Source: Grifola frondosa
Lineage: Eukaryota; Basidiomycota; Agaricomycetes; Polyporales; Grifolaceae
DNA: 64,000 nucleotides
NCBI GenBank assembly: GCA_001683735.1
Contig: LUGG01000006.1
Coordinates: 1,736,001 to 1,800,000, forward strand
Direction of reading: 5' to 3'
A model generated the notes under the pieces. The model worked only from the letters and a program-made list of their open reading frames with translations. It ran no database searches and was not told where the DNA came from. The position numbers and the translations under genes were made by a program. Below are positions 3,001-52,984 of the stretch, piece by piece. Each line of letters begins with the position of its first letter. Within the stretch, counting starts at the first letter, position 1.

Positions 3001-4120
3001 GATGACGCATGTGGGAACTGCGCCTGCGCCCACGTCCGGGTATCCACGGACACGTACAGCAGCATCTCCCCGTTGTTCCCGGTCGCCAGATCCTTCAGCG
3101 CCACTACCGCGAACTTGGACACGATAGCGAACGCAACCACGCCCCGCGCGTTCTTTCCGATCCCCAAGTCTTCCACCTTCTTCTCCGTCTCGAAGAAGTC
3201 CGTCGATGAGAACAAACGACTTGAAGACAGCGCGTGTCCACCCGTTGTGCTCGTGGTGTCGAAGGCGACGCAGTAGATCAGGTCCTCGTTCGCCTCGTGC
3301 TTGAAATCCTTGCTGCTGTGTGCGAACTGGCACCGTGACGTCTCCAGAAGCAGCAGCCGTGGCTCATCGCTGAAGGCCTCTTTCGTGTAGTATGTCTGTG
3401 AGTGAGATGTCAGCGTGCACGTGAGGCGCAAATGGGAGGCGCGAATGGGAGGCGTGAATGGGAGGCACGAAAGGGAAACGGAAGGCGAAGACGGATGATG
3501 TTATGGTCGCTACTCGAGGAACATACCTCATCGTGGCAAAAGTCTCCCCTCCGCCCGACCTCTCGCAGCTCGTGCCTTGATAGAGAATGTAGCCGTACTT
3601 GGACTTGTCCGAATGGAACGAGAGTGGTTTTGCGACTAGAGCCGGCTCGATGGGCATGTCAAACGGCCGCCACGTCTTGCCGCGGTCTTCCGTGCGGTAG
3701 TGTGTCCTCCCCCGCGAAAGTATGAATGCCTACCGCAAAAATGTGAGATGGCTGGAAAGAGCAGGTTGCGCACTCACGAAGCGATTGTCGAACGGATGCT
3801 CGATGACCATCGCGGCCTGTCCCTCTGGTACACCGTCCGCTCGGTTCCATGTCTTGCCTTCGTCCGGAGACACGTACACGTTGCCTTCCACAACATCATG
3901 GTATATGGCATACTGTTGTCCGTCGGCATCCATCAGCTCGGCATAGCATAGTCGTGTACGCGTCTCCACTCACCGTGGTATCGTCAAAGAAGAATAGTCT
4001 GGCCGGTAGGTTCTGGAAGTAGCTCACGGAAGATTGTGGCTGTTGGGCATTGACGAAGGAGAAATACAAGAACAGTATCAGTGACCAGAAGAGGACTGCA
4101 GTTCTGTGGTGGGGAGCCAT
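1..4120 (-). CDS. VPS10: VPS10/sortilin-type vacuolar sorting receptor (C terminus beyond the window)
   Basis: Type I receptor that carries soluble vacuolar hydrolases from the late Golgi to endosomes. The start ATG at 4120 opens a signal peptide (hydrophobic [16 protein letters not shown]) followed by Vps10 domain 1 with [20 protein letters not shown] and [12 protein letters not shown]. The Cys-rich 10CC module ends domain 1 around 2200-1600. A second Vps10 domain follows ([37 protein letters not shown]), as in yeast Vps10. Many small exons: 4120-3974, 3912-3778 and 3729 onward are clear. The last visible exons, at about 190-130 and 76-1, match the Vps10 CALH..GYTER..RATYS region, so the transmembrane tail lies left of base 1. 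Two places (about 3548-3575 and 1621-1632) need one extra base to keep frame. Without them the gene is otherwise full and conserved. It is divergent from RPB7. Confidence 0.93.
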
Positions 4121-4259: not shown

Positions 4260-5076
4260 ATGTTCTTTATCGTAAGTCTTTCGGTCATATAACCTCCAAC
4301 GACGCTATAATTTCGTCTAGAAAGAGCTTTCGCACACGATACTCCTCCACCCGTCTTACTTTGGCCCCCGCATGCTCCAGTTCCTTGAGTCCAAGCTTTA
4401 CTCTGACGTCGAGGGCACCTGTTCTGGTCAGTTCGGCTACATCATCGCCGTGGTCTCAATCCTCGACATTGGCAAGGGTATGGTTCTCAGCGGTAGCGGT
4501 CAGGCCGAGTTTGTCACCCGCTACCGTGCCATCGTCTTCAAGCCCTTCAAGGGTGAAGTCGTCGACGGCGTTGTCAACAACGTTAACAAGGTGCGTAGAA
4601 CGGTTCCCGCTTTCGAACGTACAGCGCCGGACGTGATACGGCGTGGCTTCTCGCGTGCAGATGGGCTTCTTTGCGGACGTCGGACCTCTGACCGTCTTCG
4701 TGTCACATCAGGTGCGCTTAGTTCTTTGCGATTTTGCTACCCTGCGGTGCGGAGAGTGCACCTTTGACTCATTGCATTTTAGCTTATTCATCCAGACATG
4801 CGATTCGACCCAAATTCGAATCCCCCTTCATTTGCCTCAGAAGAGCAGGTGCGTCTGTTCCCCATGATCGATTCCTGCGCCGCTCCTCCATCTCTTGTTC
4901 CCAGATAATCGAAAAGAATACAAAGGTGCGGCTAAAAATTGTCGGTACCCGTGTCGATGCTACAGAAATTGTACGTGATACCTCTCCCGTCTCCTTCTCG
5001 CTCGCCTCACCCGTGGACCGCCGCCCAGTTCGCCATCGGAACAATAAAAGAAGATCACCTGGGTGTCATCGACTAG
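4260..5076 (+). CDS. RPB7: DNA-directed RNA polymerase II subunit Rpb7
   Basis: Rpb7 pairs with Rpb4 to form the stalk of RNA polymerase II, which binds nascent RNA and helps initiation. Six exons: 4260-4271, 4321-4590, 4661-4711, 4783-4848, 4905-4970 and 5029-5076, all with GT..AG introns. They join to 170 codons plus stop without a frame problem, close to the usual 171 residues of the family. The N-terminal half ([20 protein letters not shown], then [14 protein letters not shown]) is the tip-associated RNP-like domain. The C-terminal half ([14 protein letters not shown], then [20 protein letters not shown]) is the OB fold, ending in KEDHLGVID. The first exon codes for only four residues. 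It is transcribed away from VPS10. Confidence 0.97.
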
Positions 5077-34866: not shown

Positions 34867-37147
34867 ATGTCTGGCCCTCACACTGAAGCTCCTCGTCCTC
34901 AGATACCTCCTCTCCCCGCTGCCTCAAAACCACCTCATCCTTCGACGTCTCACCGTGCCAAGCCATGCAGCCGGGAATACAGTGCCCACAAAATGAAGGA
35001 GAACAAACGAGACAACACCCGCATTCAAGTGAATCTCGAGATGCAGAGTCTTCTCGTCGAGCTTACCGTCGATAAATTCTTGGAGGAATTTGTCGATGGT
35101 ACGCACCCCCCTGATACCAAGAAATTCCAATTTGTAGTAGATACCGGCTCGAAGAAAACATCGTATTTGGGACTTGTGAGTCGATAAATCATGTACTTAG
35201 GTTTTGGCACTGATCGTCTTATATAGTGCAAAGGATTCAACGAAGCTATGGCTAAAGTAAAGCACAAGGAGAAACGACATGCCGCCAGGATCACTTGTCG
35301 CTGGCCAGACCTGACTACCGACGCTGGACCCGAGGAAAAGCGAAATATAAAGCAGCCCGACATCTGCATATATCCGTCCACGCCAGAGGCTATAGCGGCA
35401 TGTACACTCAGCGATGATACGATTTCGACCAGCACATATCCGAACATGAAGAGGACACGAGGTTTGTTCGGGAGAGTGTCCTGGTCCATGTTGTCAATAC
35501 CAGTGGAGGTCACGCTGGATCCAACTATGGCACCGTTTTCGTATGCGGACAAAAAGGAATGGCTTCCGGATAATGAGAATGCACAGAATGCAAGAGGACA
35601 GCTCGCATACTACGCTCGCCAAATTCTAGCCCGCCAGCACCGTCAGTTCCTATTTATGATCGTCATTATCAAAGATCATGCTCGTCTTCTGCGCTGGGAC
35701 CGTGTCGGGGCTGTCGTCTCGAAACCGTTCGACTACGTCAAGTCTCCGGAGACGTTGGGTGGCTTCGTGTGGCGGTATTCCGTGATGACACCGGCTCAAC
35801 GCGGATTAGACCCTACGGTGACTCCTGCGACGAAGGACGAGGTAATACTACTCAAAGCATATGCCAATGCACTCCATGGCAGCAAGACCCATTTGAAGAC
35901 AGCGGTGAATAACATATTCAGCGACGGATGGCCAATCCACAAGATCGAGCTTGACGCGGATGGCTTCGTCCACATGGACAACGCTCTCACAACAACGACC
36001 ATAACGGAGGACGTCCCCGTCGAGCAAGTTATAGGTAAGGAGGGTCATGCTGAAAAGCAAGACCGGTCAAAACGATACCTTCTCGTCGGCCGCGCCATGA
36101 ATACAAGTATTTCCCCGACTGGCCGAGGTACCAAATGCTTCGTCGCCTACGACATGACGACGAAGAAAGCGGTGATGTTGAAGGATACATGGCGGCCGGT
36201 GTCTTCGAATGCCCATCCAGAAGGTGAGGTATACATGCGGCTCTACGAGCGAAACGTACGTCGCAACATCGCTACCTTATTGTATTGCAGAGATGTGGGT
36301 GGCGAGCACGCGCAAAAAACTCGCACGCATGAGTGGCCGAAGAAGTCTCGCCCGATGACTCTCCCTCGGATCCATTATCGTCTAGTATTCAAAGAAATCG
36401 CACGCCCTCTTGAGAGTCATGTAGATTCTGGTGAAATGGCGGAAACCATACTGTCAGCCCTGGAAGGTAAGCTCTGGCTTTCACATTCGCATCAGAGTAC
36501 TCTACAAACTCACCATCGACTCAGCGCATCAAGAAGCTTGGGAGATGGGTGAAGTCTTGCACCGGGACATCAGCGATGGAAACATAGTGATATACGATGA
36601 CCCCGTCAGCGGTGAATCCAACGGTTTGCTCATCGACTGGGATCTCGCGAAATTCAAGGAGGATTTGGAGAAGTCACCCACTCAAAAATCCCGCGCTGTA
36701 CATCCACCACATTTCATTGCATATCTGTCTAAATATCTGATCATCCTCGTATTCACCAGGGAACATGGCAATTCATGTCGGCACTCTTGCTCCAGATCCC
36801 GACCAAGCCACACGAAGTCTCCGACGATCTAGAGTCATTCATCCATCTCGTCAACTGGCTCACGTTCAAATACCACGAAAACGACTGTTCCTATCTTCCC
36901 GCCCAACTCGGCACTGCAATGTTCAACATGTACGACCTCTTCCATACCTCTCCTGATGGTTTCGACATCGGCGGACTGGGGAAACTCACCACTAATGTGT
37001 CGGGAATCCCCCCTGTTGCACTCGTTCACGATATAAGATACGGCCGGAAATCGGGACATACATTACTCCTGGAATCCTTGGCCCTTCTTGTGCGACAACA
37101 CTACGAAGAAGTCCGCGCAAAGGATCTCATCTTTTCCTGGAGGCGCG
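34867..37147 (+). pseudogene. FunK1 kinase K5, left part (split by a KDZ element)
   Basis: Exons: 34867-35175, 35227-36466, 36525-36697 and 36760-37147, all in phase. ATG MSGPHTEAPRPQIPP (an upstream in-frame ATG lies at 34858). Motifs: SPTGRGTKCF near residue 400, AVMLKDTWRP, HRDISDGNIVIYDD near 528, IDWDLAKF near 553, GTWQFMSALLLQIPTKPHEV from 575. The coding sequence stops matching its relatives at codon 704, exactly at the 8-bp duplication GAGGCGCG. The rest is at 52632-52984. Unlike K1-K4 there is no frame break. Read into the transposon, the frame continues to a stop at 37326 and would give a truncated protein lacking the basic tail but keeping all catalytic motifs. Confidence 0.9.
37140..37147. 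repeat. Left target-site duplication (GAGGCGCG)
   Basis: Identical to 52624-52631. Eight base pairs, the size reported for KDZ/Zisupton insertions. Confidence 0.9.
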
Positions 37148-37172
37148 TAGAGATTCAGTTAGCCAGATACAT
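37148..37172 (+). repeat. Left terminal inverted repeat of the KDZ element
   Basis: Starts TAGAGATTCAG. Pairs with the right end, allowing one gap and several mismatches in about 25 bp. Confidence 0.75.
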
Positions 37173-37324
37173 CCGGTACATCACCTTCACCTGTGCCGGA
37201 TACACCCGGGAGGTGGGCTCACCTCCTGCTTTTGCCCTTGCATTGGGTCAGATACATCTCGCCAATTCGGATACAACCGAGATTGCGAGATGCATCGGAC
37301 TCCACGCTTCAATTATGGCAAAAT

Positions 37325-37400
37325 AGATGCATTTGGCCCGGATCGAACCCGCGACTTTGGAAAGCAAAGCACATACCTGATACAACTGCGCCATGAAGGC
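37325..37400 (-). pseudogene. tRNA-like sequence with Pol III A and B boxes
   Basis: On the minus strand GCCTTCATGGCGCAGTTG resembles a 5' half with an A box, and GGGTTCGATCC is a perfect B box. A TTTCCAAA anticodon-arm-like piece recalls tRNA-Gly(UCC). The acceptor does not close and the T stem is mismatched, so it is a degenerate tRNA or SINE-like head inside the left end of the KDZ element. Confidence 0.5.
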
Positions 37401-37460
37401 TTTACAAATCTATATGGAGCTATTCTAATATCCACTCATTTTGGCGTGGTGCTCGATATA

Positions 37461-37550
37461 TCCATCCCGCCGCCCATATACATCCCGCCGCCCATATACA
37501 TCCTGCCTCCCATATACATCCAGCTGTCCATATCCATCCCACCTCCCTTC
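37461..37550 (-). repeat. Left subterminal tandem array of the KDZ element
   Basis: About five copies of an 18-bp unit (CATCCCGCCGCCCATATA). Its reverse complement resembles the unit of the right-end array (GATACATATGGCGGYG), so the two arrays face each other as expected for transposase-binding sites. Confidence 0.7.
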
Positions 37551-38344
37551 CTCATTCATGCAGGTCGGATATTCATACATACCAAGATCATTTCATCTTA
37601 TAACTACATGCTCACATGTATACATAAAGTAGTACACTCTTACATGTATAGTAATAATCCAGCATTCCTTTCCCCTCCGTTATAGTGGACAACTGTCCAA
37701 ACAGAGCTCTGTGCCGGCTTGCGCACGCGGGTAATGTCCCAAGCTCAAATACGAAGCGCGCCAAAACCGTGCGCACGGATCTCTTCGAAATTGTGTGCGC
37801 GCATCTCTTCATTGAAGTGTATGCAAATTCAATCATTTACCTAATTGCGCATGCACTTTCTGTGTGTCCTCTCAGCACAAAATACAATGCACACCAGCAT
37901 CATGCACATAGATTTCTTCAAAGTTATGCATGCAGCGTGCAGACCTCTTCAAAAAAACACCGTGCATCATAATCGTGCGCGAGTCTCTCTTCAACGCAAA
38001 TTGAACTGTTTGCTTAATTGCGCGGGTACATTTTGTGCATCTCGCAAGCTCGTGCATACATGCGCTTCCGTCGCGCTTCTAATAATACGAAAACACCGAA
38101 ATCCATTACAGTACTCAATGCCACCATCCTACATACTAATCCACATCCGTAATGCTTACCCTAAGGTCCAGCACTGTAACCGCATTCTACCAAACACGTT
38201 AGTGTAGTGCTAACTGCATTTGTTCAATACTTACCGTCTCTATCCTATTTGCGAACGAAATCCGCCCCAACGACAACAACCGCGAATAACGACATGCTTG
38301 CCTAGATTATAATGAGTACGGCACCACCTACGCGAATATCTGAC
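37551..38344. other. KDZ element left internal region, no gene recognised
   Basis: Open frames on both strands are Cys/His-rich but with no clear start, domain or splice model. It probably contains the transposase 3' UTR. Confidence 0.45.
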
Positions 38345-41300
38345 TCACTTTCGCGCATATGCGGCTGCCCCATGGTCTCCGCCCTTATCCAACTCCTCCG
38401 CTTTCCTCAGCCAGTCGCGCTCGAAGTATAAGAAAAATCGCAATGTCCGCCGCATTTCCTCCTCGACCAGCAACACTTCCTCGTGCCAACGCGCCTTGAG
38501 GGCATTTGATCTGAACCAGTGAACGCGCAGTGCTTTCCCGATGCACGTCAGTCCTAAATCCTCTGTGGAATATTCGTGTACATACCGTCCTCGAAAAACT
38601 CCTCATATCCCCCCGCAGCTTGACCTTCCACAAAAGAAAAGTTCTCCCAGATCCACGAAGGTGCTTCCTTGCTTTGCCCGATTTGTTGTTGCGCCGAATA
38701 CATTGTGAACTTGCGGACATCTTCACGCTTCAGTTCCCTGTATGTAGGATCGTTAGCATTCATACCCAGCATTACCATAATCCGTCGCGCGCGGCGATAT
38801 TCGTCGGCCGCTCTGTTGATGGCTAGTTGCTTCTGCCGGATTTGGTTTGTTGCCCGAGTATTCGCCCTTTGGCCCGAAACATTATGTTTCGCGATCTTGA
38901 AAGCCTCGTTAGTGATGATGTGAGTGCGCACATCGTCCAGGGCATCGTTCGCTTGAGATTGTCGCAATTTCTGTTCTACCTCGATTGCACCGGCCAAATG
39001 TTGTGGTTGCGCACGGCCGGATCGTACGACGATGGCACATCTATCTGGATCGCATCGACCTCGAACCACGCCGTACTTTTTGTACGCTGCGCGTCATCCT
39101 CCGGCTCCGGGTCACGCTTGCGCTTCCCTTTGGCGTTGCTGGTGGAATCAGTGACGGAGTCTTCGTTCTTGTCGTCTACTGCAGGCGCGGCCAAAGGAAA
39201 TGATCTGGAGAAAGGACCGGGTGATTCCTCTTCTACAGCCTTCGCCGCCTCGTCGACCAACGGGGACAGATATCGATCCGATATATCTCTCCATTCCTTC
39301 CACTTCGCTGCGAACTGCTTGCGCTTATCGTCCAGCTCAGAGTGCCCACTATCCGTGCCATAATCATCTTGAATTGCGGTGAGAAGTGATAATCTAGCCA
39401 GTGTATGTCAGCAGTGCTGCTCGAAAGCAGAGGTCCTACGCACTTTTGAGTCTGGAGAGAGATGCCTTGCTCAATAGCCTCCACTAGACCCGGTGTCGCC
39501 GAATGATTGGGATCCGTTCGTGTGTTGAGATGCGCCAACATTTGTTTTTGTGTCAGGGCTGCGGCGCTTCGTCAGAACGGCAAAGGTCATCTGAACATTT
39601 ACTCACCTGCCTCCGGCGAGGCTCATACACATTCTCTAGGTCCTTGTGTTTCCCCATATCGACCACTTTCCGCAGCCACTCATCCTCCTGCTGCTTCCAG
39701 TTTGCTAATTTCTCCGTGCTCACGTTTTCCTCCACACTGACCAGATGATCAGTTGCCACCTTCAGCTGCTTGACCGCACGTTCGTGTTTGCTTGATAACG
39801 ATCGACCTGTGCAATGTACATCAGTAGTATACGTCAAATTCAGCAATGAAGACCACACTTAAGCTGTGAACGCGGCGGATGTTCATGTCGGAGTGATGAT
39901 CGTTGATCACGTCGTGGCGGTGACCCGACGTCATTTCTCGAGTCCGCGAAGCTAAGGCGTTGAGGGTAGCCCAAATCCTCTCAGGAGCTTCACCATCAGT
40001 CATCCCCACCCCTGGCAACCAATAGTAAGAGAACTTGAACCGACATTGCGCGATGTGAGCCGGCAAATGGAATTTGCCAACCGCTGCCAACGTCTGAGGC
40101 AAGCGGTAAGACTGTATCGAGGGGAGGTCTATCGCACGTCGTGCAATCCAATGTAGGCGTGCGGCCAAATGAATTCGGTATTGACAATTGATATCGTAGC
40201 CGGAAACGTGTAATCGAAGTCCCATCCATGGCTGTAACGCGGAAAGCATTGCAAAATCAACATTCGCGAATCTGCGCCATCGGTTAGATCATAAGTGTGC
40301 GAGCATACCGTGGTGCATACCTTTCGCCTTTCTGCAGGTCCACGCCACCACACGGAAGCACGAACATGTGGCGAGCGCACGACAACCCAACTGTTCCTGA
40401 TATTCGCCCGCCGTACCGCCCGTAGCCCAACGCCCCGAACTTGTGGCATGTGGTAGGCTGATAAACTGTTAGCGTTCATGTCTGACGAAACAGAAAATCG
40501 CTCACCTCTTTTTGAATCGGCCCAAGCCGCTTTTGATACAAGTCGAACTCTCGCTCATTCGCTAGTACGCTGCCCCAAGGGTCAGCGGTAGATCGTTCGG
40601 GTCCATGGGTTTCTCGCGTTGATTTTGATGGAAGTTGCCATCCACGGTATGAAAAAGAGCGTCCAGAAAACTAGATATCAACGTATTAAGCACAATCCAT
40701 TATAATGAATTAGGTATCACGCTCACCGTTGCCCTTCCGGTCTCGTTCGCCAGTGTGGATCCATGTTGATGCCCGGCTGTGGGCATGCTGGACACAACAC
40801 CGCGAGACTGCCCCTTGGCAAATGAATTTGCGGCTGTGTGCCTGCTCGTTTGACCGATCGTAAAAATGTAAATTCACGAGCAGCCGTCAAAAGCTCTCGA
40901 TAGCGGTCCTGTACGCCCGTCACGTCAGCGCGCAATCCCTCACAACCAGATCCACTCACCGGAACACTGTCGGGAGCCACGTTGTCCGTAGTCCGCCGCA
41001 GAAAAGTGTAGTAGTCGTGCGCATTCATCTGCGACTGCAGAGATAGCAAATGGAAGTCGCGGAGCATACTGATCGCGAAAGCCGTCATCGGACGTTCCCA
41101 GGATGCAGGAAACAACCCAAATTTGATCAGCTGAAGGGGTCTGCTAGTGGCGGACGACCGTCGGACAGACGACAAGCGCAAAAATGCACAGACATGGAAT
41201 GCACGCCATGGGCATGAACTACCGTCATGCGGCGAGGTTCTGATAACGAATTAGGGCATATGGAACCTTCATGACCCAATCGGATAACGAGACCGAGCTC

Positions 41301-41872
41301 TCCAAGAGCACGTCGACGCCAAAAACGCTCGTGGCATCCCACTCTTCTACTCGGTGGAAAGGGGTGTTGAAATGGTCGGCGATGATGCATTTGCGACACG
41401 AGGAGGATGAGTGATAACAGTCGAAGCAACGGTACATTGGGTCCTCTGTACCGCATGCAGACTTGCACTTCGCGCACGAGCATGTCTCTCCGCCGGTTCC
41501 AGACGTTGGACCTTGTTCTCGTTGCAAAATCCCTGCCAAGGCTTGCGTCGCCCAATCTTTGAGAAATTGGGCCATGCGCACGGAAGGTGGCTATGAGTAG
41601 AATTAGTAAATCATCAGAGTCGCCACCGTGCTACGCACAATTGTATTGTTGACCGTAGCATTGCCACTTTGCACCTTCGACGGCTGTGACTCCTTCGCAT
41701 ATGGTGCGGGTAAAGCCCCAGGTTGATCCCCAACTCCAACCTTTCGAGCCGCCCAAGGATCAGGGGACACTGACGCCGAGGAAGATGAAGCCGCAGATTG
41801 GAATATATTTGATAGCCCAAACAGCCCGCTTTGCTTCGCGCGGACTTTGCTCGCCTTAGGTTTGGTCGCCAT
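38345..41872 (-). CDS. KDZ-superfamily transposase with CxC2 cysteine cluster
   Basis: DDE-type transposase of the Kyakuja-Dileera-Zisupton group. ATG at 41872 (MATKPKASKVRAK). In order: a CxC2-type cysteine cluster (CSCAKCKSAC, CFDCYH, CRKC), LGHEGSICPN, HFCAC, CPACPQPGIN, a HTVDGNF segment (first catalytic Asp region), TTCHKFGA, YDINCQY (second Asp), GKFHLPAH, PGVGMTDGEAPERIWA (Glu), and SRTREMTSGHRHDVINDHHS. A Lys/Glu-rich coiled coil and a charged C terminus end at a TGA at 38345. There are about ten exons. One base is missing at three sites: AAAAA 41321-41325, GGGG 41135-41138 and GGG 40579-40581. All three lie in homopolymers, and each restored base returns the family sequence. If these are assembly slips, the transposase may be intact. 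Confidence 0.92.
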
Positions 41873-42259
41873 AGGTCATGTCGTCGAACTGAAGGTAGAA
41901 ACGAAGTCAAAATCCTTCATGAAAAAGCACGTGACCCGCACATTTGCCAGGCAGCCGCATTCCATATCAACACCCGCGTTCACCGACAATCGCTCGTTTT
42001 CAATGCGAGGGGCCGTACTACGTCCAGCGGGGACCAGTATTGGTTACTTTCGCAGATACACGCCGTACAACACGGAATACATATTACAAAGCTCAGGCAG
42101 CGCTGCTTCCCCCCCCCCCCCCTACATATTCTCCTGAAATACAGACGACAGGTTACCTTAATTGTCTTCACCATGGGCTTCCGGCTCCGTATACGAATGC
42201 AGAAAGATCCAATACTGCAATCCTGACATCAGTCAAGAAAGCGGTGTATAAAAAGTCAA

Positions 42260-42937
42260 TTATCGTACCGGTAGGTTACGGCGTGCCCAACGATCGATTT
42301 CTAAAAGACGCGCTTCGATCGGACGAGCAGGTTCCTTCGCAGCATCTTCAATCTTCCGGATGAACATCTCCCAACCTTCTACATAATCCTCCCGGTCCTC
42401 ACAAAAGAATATGTAAATCCTAGCGAGGTCGTGCACGATAGCGCGCCCATACTCCGGCACCACGCGCACTACGTCAGGGCTTCCGAGACGCGCGATCCAT
42501 TGTTCGAACTGTGCTGAGGGGAACAGTTGTTCAGCGGACAGTGGGAGATTGAACTTGTCGAAGACGTGAATTTTCTGTTAAAAGATGATATGTGCATGAC
42601 TTACGCGTTTGTCGACCTGCGATGGCAACCCCTCCATCTCAATGTAACACTCCGGCAACTGGGTGACACCTGCGCGGTTGAAGGACATCGACCAGTGCAT
42701 GGAGAGGCCGCACTCCTTGCGCAAGGATGCGGCATTCGACGTGAATGAGGGGTTGGTCGACGAGAATTCTACCCGCACTGTCACACCACGTACGTCTTGA
42801 TCCAAACGGACGTGGGGGGAAGACGATGCAGGTGCAGAGGAACGCGAGCGGGACTGGCGTAATCTTGAGAGAAACTGAGCGCGACGGCGCGCCATGTACG
42901 ACGTAGGGCTGTCGGGAGAGCTACGAACACGCGGCAT
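42260..42937 (-). CDS. KDZ-element cargo protein A, small, unknown (about 215 aa)
   Basis: ATG at 42937 (MPRVRSSPDSPTSYMARRRA). The Arg/Ser-rich N-terminal third looks like a basic DNA- or RNA-binding tail; the C-terminal part (FEQWIARLGSPDVVRVV, then ARIYIFFCEDREDYVEGWE) is folded-looking and helical. The two halves join in phase through a GTAAGT...TTTTAACAG segment of only 30 nt (42604-42575) that contains a TAA, so either this is a very short intron or bases are missing. It lies beside the transposase gene on the same strand, so co-expression is plausible. No family recognised. Confidence 0.6.
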
Positions 42938-44534
42938 TCAGGAATCAGCTAGTGAATAGTGGGGGATTAGTCTTAAGTCCTGCGGCAGAACATTTACATC
43001 CACGTACCGGATGAACAGGGGTGGATCAAGTACACCTGAGAAGACAAGATTATTCGTGAGATCAGGATAAAAAATGAAGCATGCACCGATATTCCGCAAT
43101 GCAAGCCGGACTGTGAAATCCGTGGCATTCGTCCAGACGAGTGATCCAGAAAGAACCCTGGAGGTCCAGAGGGAAAGCATGCGGCCAAACAAGGGGTTTC
43201 GTGGCAGGCGGTCGTGGGATGCTCAAACAGCAGGTGGTACCTGCCGGAGCGTATCCCGGGCCATCGAGCTCGCCAGACGGTTATGCGTCTGGGTCTCGGT
43301 GGGTTTCATGGCCACGTGCGGGGGAGAGAGAGCGGGGAGAGTGTGAGCGAGAGCGAGAGGCCCACGGAAGAGCGTGGAGAAGAGAGCGGTTGGCAGAGCA
43401 AGCTAGAGTGACGAAGGAGTGGCAAGGAGAGCGGCAGAGAGAAGGAGCGACGAGGAGAGCGGCAGAGAGGAGAGCGAGGGAGATGGCGGGGAAGTGCGAG
43501 CGGCGGCGAGGAAAGCGAGCGAGAGTGGCGGGGAAGAGAGGCTGGGAGAGCGAGGGCGGGAGCGGGGACATAGAGCCAGAAACGGGGGGGGAGGCATCGT
43601 TCAGCTCGAAGGCTGAACGCAACTCCGATGGTCCGTGCGTGGGAGCTGATGACGACTTGGCGCTTAAGCGTACTGGGCGCTGAGCTGCCATTTTGGCGCT
43701 CACTGCTCAGCGCCCAGTCACACCACTTCGGCGCTCAGGTGACTGGGTGGCTTTGGCGCGGAGCTTCAATGCCTTCCCACGCACGGGCCAGCCAGGCGCT
43801 CAGTCCTCTGACTTCCGCCTCTGACTTCTGCCTCACTCCCCTTCCCCAATCCGGCCTCCATCCTCACTGTCTTCTGCTTGCAGCTCGCTGTTCGCCTCCC
43901 CTATCCTTCTCCGCACGCCTCGACGTCACGATACGCCTCCCTCACTGCTTCTTAGTTCCTTCGCGTCCTCTTGGTTCCCTCGCGTCCTCACCATACTCTG
44001 TAAGTCCTGGACCTCGTCGCGCATACCTGGGCTGATACGCGTGCTCCCCAGTACGCCTTTGTTTTCTTCACAGGTCTTCGACGCGGCGCGTGAAGGGCTG
44101 GCACATACCAACCCTACACCGCCGTATACGCCTTGGCCCGGTAGACACCGTCTACTGTGTGCCTGGTCGTTGTCTCGTACGTCGTACGTCCATCCGCGTT
44201 CGTGGTCCCGGTCCGTGCCTCCCTCGGTTTCGTGCTCTCTGCTGGTGGTGGTTCCCCCGTGTCTCCCTCGGCGTCGTGTCCTTTCCCGTTGTGCCTCTTC
44301 TGTTCCCCCCAGCTCAACCCTTCGTGCGCGTGTGCGGTGATTTGGCTTGTTCTTCCAGGTATGATTCACTTATTTCTTCCGACCATTTCAGTGGGCTAAT
44401 CATGCGCGCTTGGCGATCGGTTTCGATTGTAGCTACGTCACTTGTTGTATTAGGGTTCGGTCATCCAATATACCTTTTTTTCTCTTGTGTAGGTCTCAGA
44501 ATGTAGTACATGTGTTTCTTGGGCGCGCGCTGAC
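42938..44534. other. KDZ element central spacer with purine tract and hairpin
   Basis: Separates minus-strand from plus-strand genes and so should hold both promoters. 43310-43600 is almost pure G/A on the plus strand (GAGAGAGAGCGGGGAGAG type). 43672-43718 holds a perfect 14-bp inverted repeat. An 84-codon minus frame at 42938-43192 (LVWTNATDFTVRLALRNIG) could be a 5' exon of the cargo A gene, but is not proven. Confidence 0.5.
43672..43718. repeat. Perfect 14-bp inverted repeat (hairpin)
   Basis: ACTGGGCGCTGAGC at 43672-43685 and its exact complement at 43705-43718, with a 19-nt loop. The loop and flanks carry further GGCGCTCA / GCGCTCAG half-sites. Confidence 0.75.
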
Positions 44535-46620
44535 AATGAGCAAAGAATCATGTCGCGAAATATGCAGGAGATTTCTCCTGAGCCAAAGCCTCGTCCCACG
44601 AACGAGCCCTCGATCGTAAGGGTCCATGATGTAGCATTGAAGCGCACCCACAAATTGCGTGCGTTTCTTTCTTTGTAGTTTCCTTTTCGCATCCGATGTT
44701 CAATTTTCAAATTTGGAATTAGGTTCAGGGCAGAAGATCCACGCCTACGATGCACTTGTGGCCGCCGAAAGTCTCAGTGACAGCTGCCTATGGACCACGC
44801 CCAATATGACGTGGGTGCCGAAGTTCCCTCTCGCTCGCCATGGTCTCCTAGAGATCATGCACGACGGCCGCTTCGGCCTTCACGAATATTCTCGCTGGCC
44901 GCAATATTATTCTCAAAACATCATTCACTGCGCTTGCATTCCCAGCACTGCTTCCCCTGAGTTCGCGCCGACCGTTCTCTTCCGATACATTCGCGAAGAG
45001 GATTTCGAACGCGATAAGCAATGCGGGGTCCAGGACGTTGGCTTCCTGCGGCCGCAGCTTATGTCCGAGCTGTTTCAAGGAGCTGAGCAAATCATCCAGC
45101 GCTGGGACCGTTCAGGCATGAACCGCAAGGCACACCGTGCGCCTGGAGACCGGATGAAGTTGGCGCTCCAGAATTCGATGGATCGTCTACGCCGGCTGCC
45201 TTCTGGATGGGAGACCGTACTCGTGATTGCTGCTCACGTCCAGCGGCTCTCGCTGGAGCTAGCAGGTTTCATTACCTGGAATGAAGTCGTCGCTCCACGA
45301 TGGGAGAATCCGTCCTTCGCCACGCATGATGTGCTCCCTGTCCTCGGCGCGTTCACGAACTCTCCCACCACGGCGATGATGTTCCATCGCGTCGGCTTAC
45401 CTGTGTGGCTCATCCAGCAACACACGCGCTCCCTCATCATCTATGACATCGTGGAGCCAGTCGGTCTGCCGTTCGACATGGACAACAACCCCACTCGTCC
45501 CTCATTAGTCAACATTTTCGACAACGGCCAAGGCATTGTGGCTGCCCCAGGCTATTGGACCGAGCTCATCCAGTGTGCGTTGATGAAGAACATCGGCGAC
45601 CGTCGTCTTGGATCTCTCCTCCCCCCTGCTCGTGAACAAGTCGTCAAGCGTCAGAAGCTCGACGAAGGCGCTGCCTTGCGGCAGCGCTCGAAGTCAACTC
45701 ATCGAGGCCCGAGGCGATCGCGCAGGAAGGCTGCTGCCGCAGGCAAGGAAAACGGCGGCGATGAGTCTCCTGCAGGCGAACACATCAGTCCGCCACCTAC
45801 CGTCGTCACTAATCTCACCCATCCGGCCGTCACACATTATCCTCCCCTTCCCCTCGTCGGCATGTCTTCGCCATGGATGCGTGCATTGCAGAGCATCTCT
45901 CCTGTCCCCCCGTCGGAGGATGCTCATAGATTTTTCTACGCGCCTCCTTTCCTCTTGTCCTCCATGCCGGGGGCAAACGCAGCTGATGAGGACGAGATGC
46001 TGAAGATCACGCGGTACATCCATAGTCTGGCTCGCATTCGCTCATTCTGCCGCTCCCGCATAATGGAGCCCACCCTCTCTGGCGACCCCCTCACGCTCAC
46101 GCAATGGCGTGATGCCCTGTGGGGCGAATATCTATATGATGCACACGCCGTGCCCCCTCCAAAGGTCTCTCCGGCCGCTGAGAGGCGCCACCACTCGAAG
46201 GTGGACGCTCGCCGACTTTTCGGCAAAGTTGGCCGCATCCCGACCTACTTCTCCGATGACGAGCCTATCGTCAGTGGCATCACGGTCTCGACAGCGGTGG
46301 CTCGCGATGACCGCCGCCTTCGTACGCTACTCCTCTGGGAGTGCCACGAGATCAATTTCAGGGGAGAGCTGTTGGCACTGGATGAGGTGCTCCTGGGATC
46401 CGCTGCGTGGTCGCCGTTGGCTAGATGGGCTCGGGAGAAGGAGGTTGCGAAGGTCTGGACGGCAGCTGGGGGAACAGCGGTGAGCGTGGTGCCATTGGAC
46501 TTCGAGACGCAGCGAGAGAGCTATAGATGGCGTGTTACCGTCCCCCGGCAGCACGCGCAGCAGGGATACCGTCGTCGCGTTCGTCTCGGTGCTTGCGTCC
46601 TGGCCATCACTCCCTCGTGA
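44535..46620 (+). CDS. KDZ-element cargo protein B, large, unknown
   Basis: A long open frame runs to a TGA at 46620 with clear coding character (WVPKFPLARHGLLEIMHDG, then HEYSRWPQYYSQNIIHCACI, then YTELIQCALM-like segments). The open frame begins at about 44659 without an ATG. An upstream ATG at 44535 followed by a GTAAGG...TTTGTAG intron (about 44618-44680) joins it in phase. A central basic stretch (VVKRQKLDEG, RGPRRSRRKAAAAGKE) looks like a nuclear localisation signal and splits an N-terminal globular domain from a C-terminal one (FRGELLALDEVLLG, ESYRWRVTVP). No catalytic motif is recognised, and the HxD signature of TET/JBP dioxygenases, known KDZ cargo, is absent. Confidence 0.65.
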
Positions 46621-47188
46621 GCTTGCTGTGCAGCCTGCTTGGCTCCAGACATGTTCGAGCGAGGAGCTTGCGCACGCTCAGGACCATGCAGTATCGTTTT
46701 ACGCACAGTCCTTTGCAAGGGTGTTCCATCGTTTGCCGACGCCGCCTGTTTTCATGAACTTGGATTAGTGTAGTGCGGACGTCATCGTTTTTGTTGCTAT
46801 GTTCATTCTATGCCTTGCTCTTCGTGTATGCTCTCTGCTTTCGCGCTGCCTGTGGATCGACGCTTTTCTCCTCAGGTGCTTTCGTTTGATCCTTCGTCGT
46901 GATTGTGCTGGATCTGGACTTCTCGGGCGGTTTATCGAGTTTTTTCTCCTTGCCGTTGGATGTATTATTTTGCAGTTATCGGAATTGATCGTTGTTTCCT
47001 TCATGGGTCTCCTCGGAGACCATCGGGATCATTTGAGATTGGCCACCGGGTAAGTTGGATTTCCGGCGCTGAACAATGTCTTGCAGGATCTCTTGCGCTC
47101 TGGCAGGGTAGCTTTCTGCGGCGGGAACGTTCGGTGAGAAATCGTCCCTGTGTTGAACTCAGGTACTGACGATTACGCCGTAGAAAAG
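46621..47188. other. Spacer between cargo genes B and C
   Basis: Pyrimidine-rich, no convincing gene. Probably the 3' UTR of B and promoter of C. Confidence 0.45.
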
Positions 47189-49150
47189 ATGGGGAAGACG
47201 AAATGGCGTCCCGAAGAGCTGGCTTTCTTGCTAGAGGCTCGCAATTCGCAGGAGGTAATGGACTTACTGAACGGGGGAGAGACTGGTAGTCAGCGAGCTG
47301 CTGCGACTTGCATCACTCAGCGATACCGCGAACATTTTGGCAACACTCCCTTTCAGGCTGAGAGCGCCGAGGAATTCACAGTACGATTGGCAGGTGCGAA
47401 GCGCAAGAATCGGTCACGAATGGTTTGTCTTGAGGAGGAGTCCGTTGAAGAAGCAGAGGCTCGTCTGGAGGGTATTGCCAAGGTACGAGGTGCCTGGCGT
47501 TGAATGATTAATACTAACGTCTTACTTAGCGCATCTACAACTGGGTGAAGAACGCCAGCGAGAAGCGCAAGCGCACGAAGGCTACTGTGGTGCCGCCTGT
47601 GCCAATGGCCGGTACGCCAGCCCGCAAGCCCAGCGCGTGGACATCTACAAGAAACAACATCCGGATCGCCCTCAAGCTGAAGTCAGCACGGGAACCGACG
47701 GACGCGCTAGAGCCAACATTGGTAAATGGGCCTCCGAAGCCAAAGCCCGATTCGACCAGCTGAGCCCGGCGGAGAAAGCTGCCTTCGCGCAGGAAGCGGA
47801 GACTCAAGGGAAGGCACTTGAAGCTGAACTCGCAGCTCTTGGCCCTGATGGCATTGCGCGGCGTAAGTCAATACGATTTCTGTGCGGGATAATTCTTACG
47901 GCGTGCACAGGAAAGCTTCCTCGATGCCAGACTGGTTGGAAGCTTGTGCACGAGGATGGTATGATCAAACCGGTTGGGTAGGGTTCTACATCGCGGGCGG
48001 CGTTGATGCCAATGGGAATCTACAAGCATATGCGTGAGTCCGTTTAAACTCGTTACTGGTTGATTCAGCTGACATCACACGTAGAACAAGCATTGGCAAG
48101 GACGCAGCGGGCTGTGACTTCGAAACGCGGCTGTGTGCTCTTGCAGGTTGGCCTTCCGACCGTATTCGCGGCAAATTCACAGAGTTTTTATCTGACTTAT
48201 TCAAACGTGAGTATCAGTCGTGTTCGATCGGCCATTTTCCTCAATCGATCCTATACTACAGCACCCGCCGCCTTCGCCGCCGTCGCACACACGAGCGTCG
48301 TGCTCCACCTTGCCGAGCAAGGTGACGAGCTCTCTGGCGCATTGGCTGCGTCCCAGCCGTCGCCTTCTCCCCCACGAGACAGCTCGCCGGAGCTCTACCA
48401 ACCAGAATCACCCCAACTATCGTCTCCATCGCCTGCTCGCACGCGTGAGAACTCACAGGAGGTTTCGCGACCAGCATCTCCTCAACCATCCGTCCCATCG
48501 CCTACTTGTGTGCGACAGATGCCGCAGGAGGTTTCTCAACCGGCATCCCCTCAACCTTCATTGTCACAGGCAGTCGTGGCGGAGATCGTGCACAAGGGTG
48601 CGTATTCTTCGTGGTCGATCATTCAGGATTAGCTAACACATGAACTTCGACTCACAGCGATCCAAGGTAAGCTTGCAATAATGTTGATGAGGCAATCGTA
48701 CTGACGAACGCAATGTAGAAACCTTGACTGACGGAAACCAGCAGACGCGCAAGAAGTCGAGGAAGTCCAAGTCAAAGAAATTCAAATCAAAGAAATCAAA
48801 GTCTCTTGATAACGGTACGTAGTTGACCGCATTCTTCATACATTCTCATCTACAGCATAATATTACAGACCCCGCTTCAGCCGCCAAATCTTCTGGACCG
48901 CGCGCGTTGCAAAACCAGTACGAACGGTCCAGCCTGTGGACACTCTCACTGATTACTCGAGCTCCACGGGAACGCAAACCTTCAGGTCGCCTTCTTGGCG
49001 AAGATCCGTAAGTGAAATATTCTGTCAATCAACAGACTAGAAGGAACTCACTTACGGTGCAGGGTGCAGACTGTCGCTCTGCAAAAGCGGAAGGCGGCGC
49101 AGAGCCTCGAGTCGCTTGAACCGAAGTCGACGAAGCGTCGCCGCGGGTGA
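47189..49150 (+). CDS. KDZ-element cargo protein C, HMG-box-like
   Basis: ATG at 47189 (MGKTKWRPEELAFLLEARNS, a Myb/SANT-like opening). Exon 1 is 47189-47482, exon 2 from 47530. An HMG-box-like segment follows: VDIYKKQHPDRPQ, then ANIGKWASEAKARFDQLSPA and EKAAFAQEAE. Next are WYDQTGWVGFYIAGGVD and FETRLCALAGWPSDRIRGKF, a Pro/Ser-rich linker with EVSRPASPQP-type repeats, a Lys/Ser stretch (KKSRKSKSKKFKSKKSKS), and the end STKRRRG. The DNA-binding character suggests a role in element regulation or transposition. One base is missing at about 47636 (AGCGCGTGG) between KPSA and VDIYKK. The remaining introns are phase-consistent. Confidence 0.7.
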
Positions 49151-49593
49151 ACTTCACGCAGCTACTTTCCACTAAATTCCGTAGCTACGTTATCGTATTT
49201 TTGTCTTAGTTACTTGGTTCCCGACTGTGACAAGAGTGATACACCTCGACAGGCAGCCGGTGTCCGTGGGATAAGATCTGCTGTCCCGGGCGTTGGTGGA
49301 TAAATGAGTGATCTTGATATTTCCGGTATGTTTTGAAACCAATCTTGAGGCGATCGATCTTCACGGGCACTTAGAAACACGGCAGGGAAGTTTCGTCGTT
49401 CCGTGCCCTGAAAGTGTGGTCGAGCTGGAGCGTTATCGCGTATTTGCTTCCTCCAACGCATCGGCCGACGCGCTCTTCCGCCTTCTGGAGAAATTTGACA
49501 TGGCGAGATCCAGGCTGCGTATGTTATAATCTGTCTGACTTCGTGTATTTGTCTTCTTGTGGACATCCACCTCTCACTATTCTCACATTTCCC
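49151..49593. other. Spacer between cargo genes C and D
   Basis: A 73-codon frame (49308-49529) has no domain. Likely the promoter and 5' UTR of D. Confidence 0.45.
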
Positions 49594-52052
49594 ATGCCTT
49601 CTAAATACTCTAACGCTCTCAGGACTCTCTGCGAGGAGGGTTCGAAAGAATATCGCCCTAAAGACAGCCCGAAAGTTTGCCCTACTTGCGGCAACGGCGG
49701 CAAGATCATCTGTAAGTTGGCGTTCGCCAGCGAGCATGCGGGCGAATGGTTCTTTAAGGTATGTTTCTACTTACTTAGACGCACTGCGGGGCTCATTTGC
49801 TGTCCATCAGTGCACGTACAAAAATTTCGAGAAGAACAAGTACTGCGATTGGTTCTCCTGGACCGGGGCAGCTCCCTCTCCATCGAAGATTGCCGCTATT
49901 CAGGCACTCATTGCCGATGAAGAACGTATTCGCCTGGAGGCTGATGCGAATCGTCTGGGAGCGACGGCGGAACGCGCCCGGGTTGCTGAAGAGAAGGCGG
50001 GTGCGCGCGAGGAGGTGGCTAAGGTGCGGCACGAGAGGGCGGTAGTGACGGCGCGAGCGGCACAAGAACGAGCAGACCGTGCTTTGGCGACGAAACTGCA
50101 AAGTGAATTGGATAACGAGGTAAGTGAGAGATCAATACGCGGTAATTCTACACTAACCTAGTGAATAATAGGGATGTTTGGGGAAGCGTCGCGCTTCGAT
50201 GGACCTCACTGAGGGCATCCCTGAGAAAAAAAGGCTGGTTGAAGAGGGTGCTAGCCCCCAGGTAAGTGATATGCAACCCGCAAATGAACACCTGCTGACT
50301 GCTACCACATAGACGACAGGTTCGTCGAGCGGTGTGACTCCATCCGGGCTTGGATGGTCCAGCTCGCAGGTGAGCCTCGATTCTTGTGTTATGCATTATA
50401 TAACTAATCATACATTGATCCAGCCCACGGCTTCTACTCCTCGCACGCCAGCTACGAGCCCTACCGACTCCTTGAAGGGTAAAGGCAAAGGCAAGGCGCT
50501 GTCGTCTCGCAAGACACCTGCCATCAATGCCATCGTCCGCGTGCCGACCATGACTCGAATTCCTAGGCCAGTGACGTTCCCCCTCCTCAGCCAGACCTTT
50601 AACGAGAAGGTCGCGACCTCGGGTACTGCGGCATCTGCTGGTGATCGTTCTTCTGGATCGTCGTCTCTCCCGAGCACCTTTTTCGTCCCTTCCACGCCCT
50701 CGGATGGACCATCTCCTCCTACCAAGGCAGCTCGCATCGTACGCATCACGACTGGCACTAGGCCGGTCACCCAGCCTCTCACCCAGAAGTCCAACGACGT
50801 GTTTGGCCCTTCCACGCCCTCGGATGGACCGTCTTCTCCTACCAAGGCAGCTCGCATCGTACGCATAACGACTGGCACTAAACCGGTCACTCAGCCCCTC
50901 GTCACTCAGAAGTCCAGCGAGAAGACGGCGACTGGGGCATCGGCTGGCAGCGCTCCTCCTGGCTCCGCGTCTCGCTCTAAGAGCACGTTTTTTGTCCCTT
51001 CCACGCCCTCGGATGGACCGTCTTCTCCCAGTAAGAGAGCTCGCATCGTACGCACATCGACCTTCTCGCGCCTCCCAATCCCCATTACACGGACGCCAGT
51101 CACGCCAAAGGCGTCCGTCGTTCATACCACTGACCCAAGCTATGCCCGCTCTCCCTCTCCCGCTTGTAGCGTCATCTCTATCTCTTCCGATTCGGATGCT
51201 GAGCCGACGTTGGATATTGGCGCGGCAGTCGATGCAGCAATCTCGGACACCTTTCCCACTCAAAAAGTGTGGATGACGGCCGCCCGCAAGGTGTACACCT
51301 CCCTTGCATCTGAATTCTTGAAACAACAGGCATCGAAGGAGCCTAGCCCTTCAAGCGGGAACGACAGCGGCAAGGAGAATCGCCACCCCCCGCTGCTCGC
51401 AGCGGAGGAGGCGATCGGGCCCGACGACGACGATGCATTACCCCGTTCATCGCAGGTCAACTCCAGCCCGGAGTTGGTGGCTGGTCTTCGAACTGACAAG
51501 GACCCCTTCGCCTCCCTCTTTACAGAAGAGATGTCGGGTGGGCATGCTTCGGACCTATACACTTCCGACGAGGATCCCCTCGACAAGTTGACATGGGATG
51601 AGTCGGACGAGGAGTTTGAGCCGGAAAGGGGCGGCATGGGGTCCTCATCTTCTGAGCCGGAATGGGCGGGGTGTCGACGGAGCAGGACTGGTTCGCGCTC
51701 GAAATTTACGTGTGGAACCAGGTATGTCCGCTTGCTAATTCTCTCGAGCGCGAACTCACATTCACGTTAGTCGGGCAAGCGACCACGGCCGTTCTATATC
51801 ACTGTCCCTCGTGAGGGGAAAATCAGCATCGCGCGACTTCCAATCGTTTTAAAGTGCTTTACCGATGCTAATGTTGTGCATTTCCAGCGTTGGAACCCGG
51901 TGATGCGGATATGGGAGGCGAATAAACTTACGGACGCTTTCTGGGTCCACTGCGAGCTGCGGCGAACACTCATCTTACGTTTTCCTGGGGTGGATCCGTG
52001 CACCGGGATGGAGGACTTCCTTCACAAGTTGGACAGGGAGTCCATGTTGTAG
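49594..52052 (+). CDS. KDZ-element cargo protein D, GRF-type zinc finger with disordered tail
   Basis: Exons: 49594-49758, 49811-50119, 50172-50261, 50313-50369, 50424-51721, 51771-52052. The N terminus has a GRF-like zinc finger across the first intron: CPTCG, then EWFFKCTYKNFEKNKYCDWF. GRF fingers bind single-stranded nucleic acid in NEIL3, APE2 and TOP3A. An Ala/Arg/Glu coiled coil follows (RARVAEEKAGAREEVAKV), then a Ser/Pro-rich region with three repeats of FVPSTPSDGPSSP plus ARIVR. SVISISSDSDAEP resembles a SUMO-interacting motif. The C-terminal domain (PRPFYITVPREGKISIARLP, then HFQRWNPVMRIWE, FLHKLDRESML) looks folded but unknown. One base is missing at about 51664-51671 (GGGCGGGG). 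Probably nuclear; role in the element inferred only from location. Confidence 0.72.
50679..51062 (+). repeat. Three in-frame coding repeats in cargo protein D
   Basis: Three related units start near 50680, 50808 and 50985, sharing CCTTCCACGCCCTCGGATGG and the following GCTCGCATCGTACGCA block. They encode PSTPSDGPSSP(T/S)K then ARIVRI. Spacing is about 120-180 bp. Confidence 0.85.
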
Positions 52053-52210
52053 GAAGGTGTGTTGTTTATATTCAATGCCTGTGCTGCACACTAACCGTTG
52101 ACAATGCAGAAGTCTACTTAAAATACAATAGAGAATGTGATGTTCATATTTTGTCTGATGTTGAAACCGCGTGCAAGTGTGAGAATATAGGTGAGTCATT
52201 CTCAGTCATG

Positions 52211-52530
52211 GCGTAGCTACGGGTGAGGATGCGAGCGTCGTCGTCGGATACATATGGTGGCGTCGGATACATCTGGCGGCGTCGGATACATATGGCGGTG
52301 TCGGGGCACTTGGGGTATGATGGGTCCGGCGTAGCTACGGGCGAGGATGCGAGCGTCGTCGTCGGATACATCTGACGGCGTCGGATACATCTGGCGGCGT
52401 CGGATACATATGGCGGTGTCGGGGCACTTGGGGTATGATGGGTCCGGCGTAGCTACGGGCGAGGATGCGAGCGTCGTCGTCGGATACATCTGGCGGTGTC
52501 GGATACATATGGCGGTGTCAGGCAATGATA
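52211..52530 (+). repeat. Right subterminal minisatellite of the KDZ element (118-bp period)
   Basis: Units start at 52211, 52329 and 52447 (GCGTAGCTACGGGYGAGGAT), nearly identical, the last partial. Each contains two or three copies of an 18-bp sub-unit GTCGGATACATMTGGCGG. The sub-unit shares GGATACA with the terminal repeat and is inverted relative to the left array. Confidence 0.85.
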
Positions 52531-52599
52531 CATATGGTATTACGATCTATATACACCTCGGAATATGTATCTATTTTTGTTCTACTCCATCTTCTTTCT

Positions 52600-52623
52600 G
52601 TATCCGGCCAACTGAAGTCCCTC
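52600..52623 (-). repeat. Right terminal inverted repeat of the KDZ element
   Basis: The reverse complement starts GAGGGACTTCAGTTGGCC, matching the left end imperfectly. Confidence 0.75.
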
Positions 52624-52631
52624 GAGGCGCG
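52624..52631. repeat. Right target-site duplication (GAGGCGCG)
   Basis: Exact copy of 37140-37147. Confidence 0.9.
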
Positions 52632-52984
52632 ATACTTGGAATACTGCGAATGTTCAGAACGAAGAGGAAGACGATGACATCATTTTGGTGTCCGACCAGG
52701 AAGGGCGCCGCGTTGAGCGCAAATACCATGCCAGTGTCTCACAGCCAGAACCTTTTGAACCCACCGCTGAGGGAGTCCTAAGCCATCACCGCCCCATTGT
52801 TAGCGCATTCAAGAAAGTGTTAGCTGCAGATACCGGGATCGTTTGGTATCAAACGAAATATGCCAACGTGATTCCGTCGTTCACGGGTTCCGGCACACTG
52901 AAGCGTAGCGCAGAGTGCAGATCGCTCGGAGATTCTGAGGATAGCGATGAAGAGCCCACTCGGAAGCGAGCCCGGCCATCGTAG
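52632..52984 (+). pseudogene. FunK1 kinase K5, right part (C terminus)
   Basis: Encodes TWNTANVQNEEEDDDIILVS, then AEGVLSHHRPIVSAFKKVL, NVIPSFTGSGTLKRSA, and the basic end RKRARPS with TAG at 52982. These match the tails of K2 and K4 (AEGVLSNH, NVIPSWT.SGTLKRS, KRARP). It has no start of its own. It follows codon 704 of the left part in frame across the target site. The flank after it (TTGGAATATCTTCCTTTGGG) also matches the K2 flank. Confidence 0.92.

Follow-up and report, generated by a model that had tools for sequence, protein, structure and literature searches.

A KDZ cut-and-paste transposon of 15,477 bp has very probably inserted into the final exon of a FunK1 kinase gene with an intact frame in Grifola frondosa, duplicating the 7-bp target GAGGCGC, and it belongs to a KDZ lineage that carries two accessory genes instead of TET/JBP. 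The element lies in a stretch of 64,000 nucleotides (assembly GCA_001683735.1, contig LUGG01000006.1, positions 1,736,001 to 1,800,000 of the forward strand), which is called the window here and whose first letter is position 1; its contig is denoted C6, and the interrupted kinase gene is denoted K5. The repeated target is a classic textbook sign, and there is nothing unusual in a DNA transposon that sits in one gene of a large family. The mechanism is ordinary as well, and the interest of the element lies more in its lineage and companion genes than in the split kinase. A sister lineage without TET/JBP, in which two other genes stay linked over a large divergence, offers a natural comparison and named proteins to test. 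The kinase insertion, for its part, is defined and apparently recent, and its empty allele is predicted exactly.

The element and its transposase

The element is complete (37147..52623). It is inserted between two copies of the 7-bp repeat GAGGCGC (37140..37146 and 52624..52630), and its ends are identical to 12 other left ends and 11 other right ends in the genome, as a comparison with the other copies showed. RGATACA motifs cluster near the termini: 14 of the element's 15 are no more than 450 bp away from an end, four of them forming the left subterminal repeats (37165..37275). A subterminal array on the right (52210..52519, forward strand) consists of a 118-bp unit repeated 2.6 times, which contains 19-bp units of the GGATACATMTGGCGG type. 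The copy number of this array varies among elements, and the copy on contig C13 has an extra 118-base stretch relative to that of the window. The left terminal inverted repeat, GTAGAGATTCAGTTAGCCAGATACA (37147..37171, forward strand), matches the inverted right end (52599..52623, reverse strand) at 18 of 25 bases, a value never reached among 200,000 random pairs of 25-mers from the window (0/200,000). Within it, the core TTCAGTTRGCCRGATACA matches at 16 of 18 bases when counted by eye. An earlier reading made from the letters alone (the sequence-only reading) had described inverted ends flanked by GAGGCGCG on both sides. Both features were located, the repeat at 37140-37147 and again at 52624-52631.

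The same reading had called the insertion a KDZ transposon of 15.5 kb inside a FunK1 gene, and profile searches bear out both names. The transposase gene region (38336..41800, reverse strand) comprises several exons and changes frame at several places, its borders being approximate and set by eye. Its core exon (39881..40276, reverse strand; C6:1775881-1776276) matches PF18758, the core domain of the KDZ superfamily, with an E value of 2.3e-32 and a score of 112.9 bits (cut-off 26.6). A CxC2 cysteine cluster (40978..41306, reverse strand) is divided between two reading frames in the window copy (PF18803, E values of 1e-11 and 2.6e-16) and occupies a single frame in the copy on contig C20 (1.3e-25). 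The element combines the core domain with a CxC cysteine cluster and with defined ends bounded by a target site duplication, as KDZ elements do. Its own transposase or that of a sibling KDZ element would bind the RGATACA-type subterminal repeats and the degenerate inverted ends, excise the element and cut the new site with a 7-bp stagger.

Companion genes and the KDZ lineage

Beside the transposase lies companion gene 2 (44641..46617, forward strand), an unbroken open frame of 659 amino acids from stop to stop. It has no match in Pfam or NCBIfam. Database searches, in which the 7994 candidates sharing most words were scored so that the relatives are a lower bound, found at least 13 related proteins at E <= 0.001 and 30-35% identity, of which the five named ones come from polypores; a profile built from the gene-2 alignment found at least 11 proteins, one of them new. 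An AlphaFold2 model built from 14 sequences had a mean predicted local distance difference test (pLDDT) score of 51, too poor for a fold search. Companion gene 3 (region 47189..48632, forward strand) is spliced and has an uncertain 3' border. Its first 136 residues match in 12 family copies, in six of the seven sister elements and at nine other loci, six of which have a KDZ match no further than 10 kb away (distances by eye). Gene 4 (49594..52053, forward strand) has a CxxC-containing N-terminus and a low-complexity middle, and its model is incomplete at the later introns; in the genome search, its first 188 residues had relatives only in copies of the window element's family. No piece of genes 2, 3 and 4 that was scanned matched a Pfam family above cut-off. 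A zinc-finger GRF identity for gene 4 was rejected because Pfam gives no such match. The presence of a TET/JBP gene within the element was likewise rejected, as none of the 22 Tet_JBP matches in the genome falls inside a family copy.

The genome contains 34 gene-2 loci, grouped from 97 matches that were partly entered by hand, and 77 KDZ loci, derived from 102 of 128 match rows (the remaining 26 rows add no locus). Of these gene-2 loci, 25 lie at most 9 kb from a KDZ locus, compared with about 1.2 expected at random; the 9-kb limit was chosen after the distances had been seen, and 10 kb yields the same 25. The linkage holds for 12 of 13 loci in the window family, for all seven of a sister family that departs from the window family by 3 bases at its left end, and for six of the 14 others, the remaining eight being mostly short and weak matches. 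None of the 34 gene-2 loci is within 20 kb of a TET/JBP locus, of which the genome has 22, and 17 of those 22 themselves have a KDZ locus at a distance of at most 9 kb.

A tree was built from 26 short KDZ fragments chosen from the 77 loci, all of this genome. Eight KDZ sequences labelled with gene 2 (one with gene 2 at 15 kb) split off together with two in which no gene 2 was detected, with a support of 0.986, and seven TET/JBP-linked sequences form another clade with a support of 0.994. The gene-2-linked and TET/JBP-linked transposases fall into separate supported clades among these 26 short sequences from a single genome. These results suggest that the element belongs to a KDZ lineage with two linked accessory genes instead of TET/JBP.

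Genes 2 and 3 could be passengers captured from the host rather than functional parts of the element, but we consider this unlikely. At nine of the 34 gene-2 loci the nearest KDZ match is over 9 kb away, and 20 of the loci come from just two families, so that they do not count as independent. In addition, gene 4 is confined to the window element's family, which indicates that passengers may occur. However, gene 2 stays linked to KDZ in the sister family and at six further loci, where its protein identity with the window copy is 30-53%. The two genes are divergently oriented at 24 of the 25 linked loci (judged by eye), and the sampled KDZ sequences with gene 2 group in one clade. Genes 2 and 3 may act in transposition or in escape from silencing. 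A broader proposal is that the KDZ elements of Agaricomycetes fall into two or more lineages whose accessory sets exclude each other, with the DNA-demethylation enzyme TET/JBP in one and the Pfam-less, divergently transcribed gene 2 plus gene 3 in a second, and that the latter set takes the place of TET/JBP as a requirement for transposition or silencing escape; we regard this as evenly balanced between true and false. A second KDZ lineage with genes 2 and 3 was not described in the searched literature on KDZ accessory genes.

Comparison with known KDZ elements

The passages on KDZ elements in Kojima 2025 (PMC12730594) describe the Kyakuja elements of L. bicolor as having 7-bp target repeats and CA..TG ends and as lacking inverted repeats; two families with these features carry a TET/JBP gene. 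They also report the proposal that TET/JBP genes in fungal transposons aid escape from methylation-based silencing. The window element shares with the TET/JBP-positive Kyakuja elements of Agaricomycotina in that account a KDZ transposase, an Agaricomycetes host and a 7-bp target duplication. Unlike them, it has G..C termini, degenerate 25-bp inverted repeats and no TET/JBP match, and its transposase lies outside the clade of the sampled TET/JBP-linked KDZ sequences of this genome. Because the target length fits Kyakuja and the termini and inverted repeats do not, the element was filed as KDZ without a lineage name. It is a new family.

Zisupton and a Dileera family belong to the same superfamily (PF18758) and differ from the window element in their target repeats, which are 8 bp long in the same passages of PMC12730594. 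KDZ1, KDZ2 and KDZ3 of Cryptococcus neoformans, as presented in the relevant part of PMC12810828, are likewise mobile and belong to KDZ; they measure about 9-11 kb, encode a transposase with a cysteine cluster and have defined target repeats (8 bp in KDZ1, 4-8 bp in KDZ2 and KDZ3). They differ in having inverted repeats of 139-241 bp and a best match to CxC1 instead of CxC2. In M. oreades, Dileera and Kyakuja were classified by homology, according to a section of PMC8290104 in which the length of the target repeat is not stated.

The interrupted kinase gene

K5 has four exons on the forward strand, and the fourth and last is split by the element. Exon 1 (34867..35175, 309 nt) begins with the ATG at 34867 and ends at a GT donor; exon 2 (35227..36466, 1240 nt) and exon 3 (36525..36697, 173 nt) have AG/GT borders. 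The 5' part of exon 4 (36760..37146) reaches the insertion after codon 703, and its 3' part (52631..52984) includes the stop codon and aligns with the C-terminus of paralogues. When the parts are joined, the coding sequence is 2463 nt long and encodes 820 residues followed by one terminal stop, with GT/AG at all intron borders. The sequence-only reading had counted five coding pieces of 309, 1240, 173, 388 and 353 nt. Its sum and its unbroken frame stand, and the pieces are to be read as four exons, of which the fourth is interrupted.

The joined protein matches Pkinase_fungal (PF17667, E value of 1.6e-49), which places it among the FunK1 kinases. Among the best 120 of 140 protein matches, the annotated G. 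frondosa neighbor A0H81_06530 matches at 79% over 94% of the query, and A0H81_06523, which is the annotated 5' part of K5 itself, at 96% over 55%. An alignment of joined K5 with FunK1 homologues had been proposed as a check; paralogues cover both sides of the junction, and the two halves of K5 both align to the single paralogue A0H81_06530, with the junction in a weakly conserved linker. The PF17667 match ends at residue 608 and the element sits after residue 703, so that the catalytic domain is uncut. The kinase had been called split, which is true of its last exon and not of its catalytic domain. In its present form the frame (open frame 36733-37326) has the 703 codons and a 59-residue tail derived from the element, with a stop at 37324-37326. 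The filled allele has thus lost the C-terminal 117 residues of K5 and kept the kinase domain. K5 is of the same family as the many FunK1 matches on its contig and differs from FunK1 kinases, in the filled allele, by these missing residues. The FunK1 matches on C6 are concentrated in large numbers at roughly 1.07-1.81 Mb. Judged from its reading frame, K5 is a FunK1 kinase gene that appears intact apart from the insertion.

The insertion could be old and neutral if K5 had already been a pseudogene, and several FunK1 matches to the K5 protein in the genome do carry internal stop codons. This explanation is nevertheless very improbable. The 820 codons of K5 and their stop are open across the junction, in agreement with the earlier claim that the frame was intact when hit, the target repeat is perfect and the element copy has few private changes. 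In an alignment of eight of the 11 complete copies, private changes were judged against three other copies of the same subfamily (A). The window copy had 9 private substitutions in about 15.4 kb and 3 single-base deletions, as compared with 9 and 8 in the C13 copy, 46 and 46 in the C22 copy, and 94 and 83 in the C5 copy. The closest copy is the one on C13, with 12 mismatches in a BLAST alignment of the first 15,373 bases, and with 26 substitutions and 35 indels over the whole length in a five-copy MAFFT alignment. As far as these sequence differences indicate, the window copy is among the youngest and the insertion is apparently recent, as had been claimed.

Copies, empty sites and target length

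Copies of the element were searched for in 39.06 Mb of sequence on 64 contigs. The left end gave 13 matches and the right end 59, of which 12 reach the end. A pattern search with up to 3 mismatches found 13 left ends and 12 right ends that are exact; with 3 mismatches it found 7 more places for the left end and 1 for the right. The family termini are GTAGAG..CCCTC in these 13 left and 12 right ends. Both ends are present in 11 complete copies, each of which is flanked by a different 7-mer repeat. The repeat is perfect (7 of 7 bases) in nine copies, namely GAGGCGC (window), CAGAGAC, TACCCAT, CCATCGA, TCTGAGG, GATTGGG, CTCCCTC, AGCGCAA and AGGAGTC, and matches at 6 of 7 bases in two. The sequence-only reading had held that complete KDZ elements are rarely caught so cleanly, which does not agree with these 11 copies or with others published in the parts of PMC12730594 and PMC12810828 that concern such elements. 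When the flanks of the C20 copy were joined, they matched C10:1166418-1166617 without interruption (200 of 200 bases, 99%). This stretch is an in-genome empty site for the C20 copy. A second uninterrupted match, at 82%, was found on contig C26.

We consider it highly improbable that K5 is broken by an assembly join or a segmental rearrangement and not by a transposition. The assembly does contain many single-base indels between near-identical copies, as well as odd structures such as an element divided between contigs C28 and C25. However, such an origin would not account for identical ends with differing 7-bp repeats at 11 sites, or for the empty site found for one of them. Three points nevertheless weigh against transposition into K5 as we read it. 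The empty-site search covered one joined flank pair (C20) of 12, and no empty K5 allele was seen in the single G. frondosa assembly examined; the assembly section of PMC12028448 describes assembly CH1 and names three others, GCA_001683735.1, GCA_003313135.1 and GCA_041464085.1. The third point is that the transposase is open throughout in none of six copies, these being the six listed of the 11 complete ones, so that autonomy of the element is not supported. The frame-changing indels in the transposase occur at differing places in different copies, and they could be assembly errors, real decay or both.

Transposition with a 7-bp target differs from the sequence-only reading in one base. We give next to no credence to a target of 8 bp, as in Zisupton and Dileera, with the element starting with T at 37148, a reading that the sister copies refute. 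The repeat is GAGGCGCG on both sides at the K5 site alone. Base 37147 is G in all 13 left ends, which start with GTAGAGATTCAG, but only 3 of 11 copies have a G directly behind their right-hand target repeat, and there is a 7-base overlap between the C20 flanks. The eighth base, 37147, was therefore assigned to the element as its first. The reconstructed empty site of K5 is identical with either target length. The same eight bases also occur in a 13-bp tandem repeat, GAGGCGCGAATGG, at 3423-3476 of the window, which is probably a coincidence.

Divergence and structure of the family

The family is mosaic. Its two subfamilies are about 98% alike over the first 5.5 kb, on the transposase side, diverge by 19-31% over about 1.8 kb (42547-44347) and are about 92% alike thereafter. 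The left 2 kb of the window copy is nearer to subfamily B (C20) than to the C5 copy of its own subfamily.

Private single-base deletions fall at CpG in 62 of 83 cases in the C5 copy, 12 of 13 in C3, 18 of 25 in C20, 29 of 46 in C2 and 15 of 27 in C19a, where about 20% is expected. CpG-to-TpG/CpA changes make up 47 of the 94 substitutions in the C5 copy. In the window copy, one of the three private deletions and one of the nine private substitutions are at CpG. The CpG-biased deletions are possibly footprints of methylation, or a sequencing artefact of methylated sites.

Among the copies on C12, C8, C2 and C19, some are much longer, with about 16.9 kb extra in the C12 copy at element position 4823. 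The C2 copy has about 3.6 kb extra with a 3-base overlap at the borders, as nested insertions would give. The element divided between two contigs has bases 1-1385 at C28:43039-44401 and base 1373 to the right end at C25:252743-267303, and the same 7-mer, AGCGCAG, is found in both outer flanks. This arrangement suggests a translocation or a misassembly with the breakpoint inside the element. Pairs of KDZ matches with identical scores also lie on opposite strands, 17-25 kb apart (C19:859450/879499, C2:1543180/1559907 and C7:95144/119873), and represent inverted duplications or assembly artefacts.

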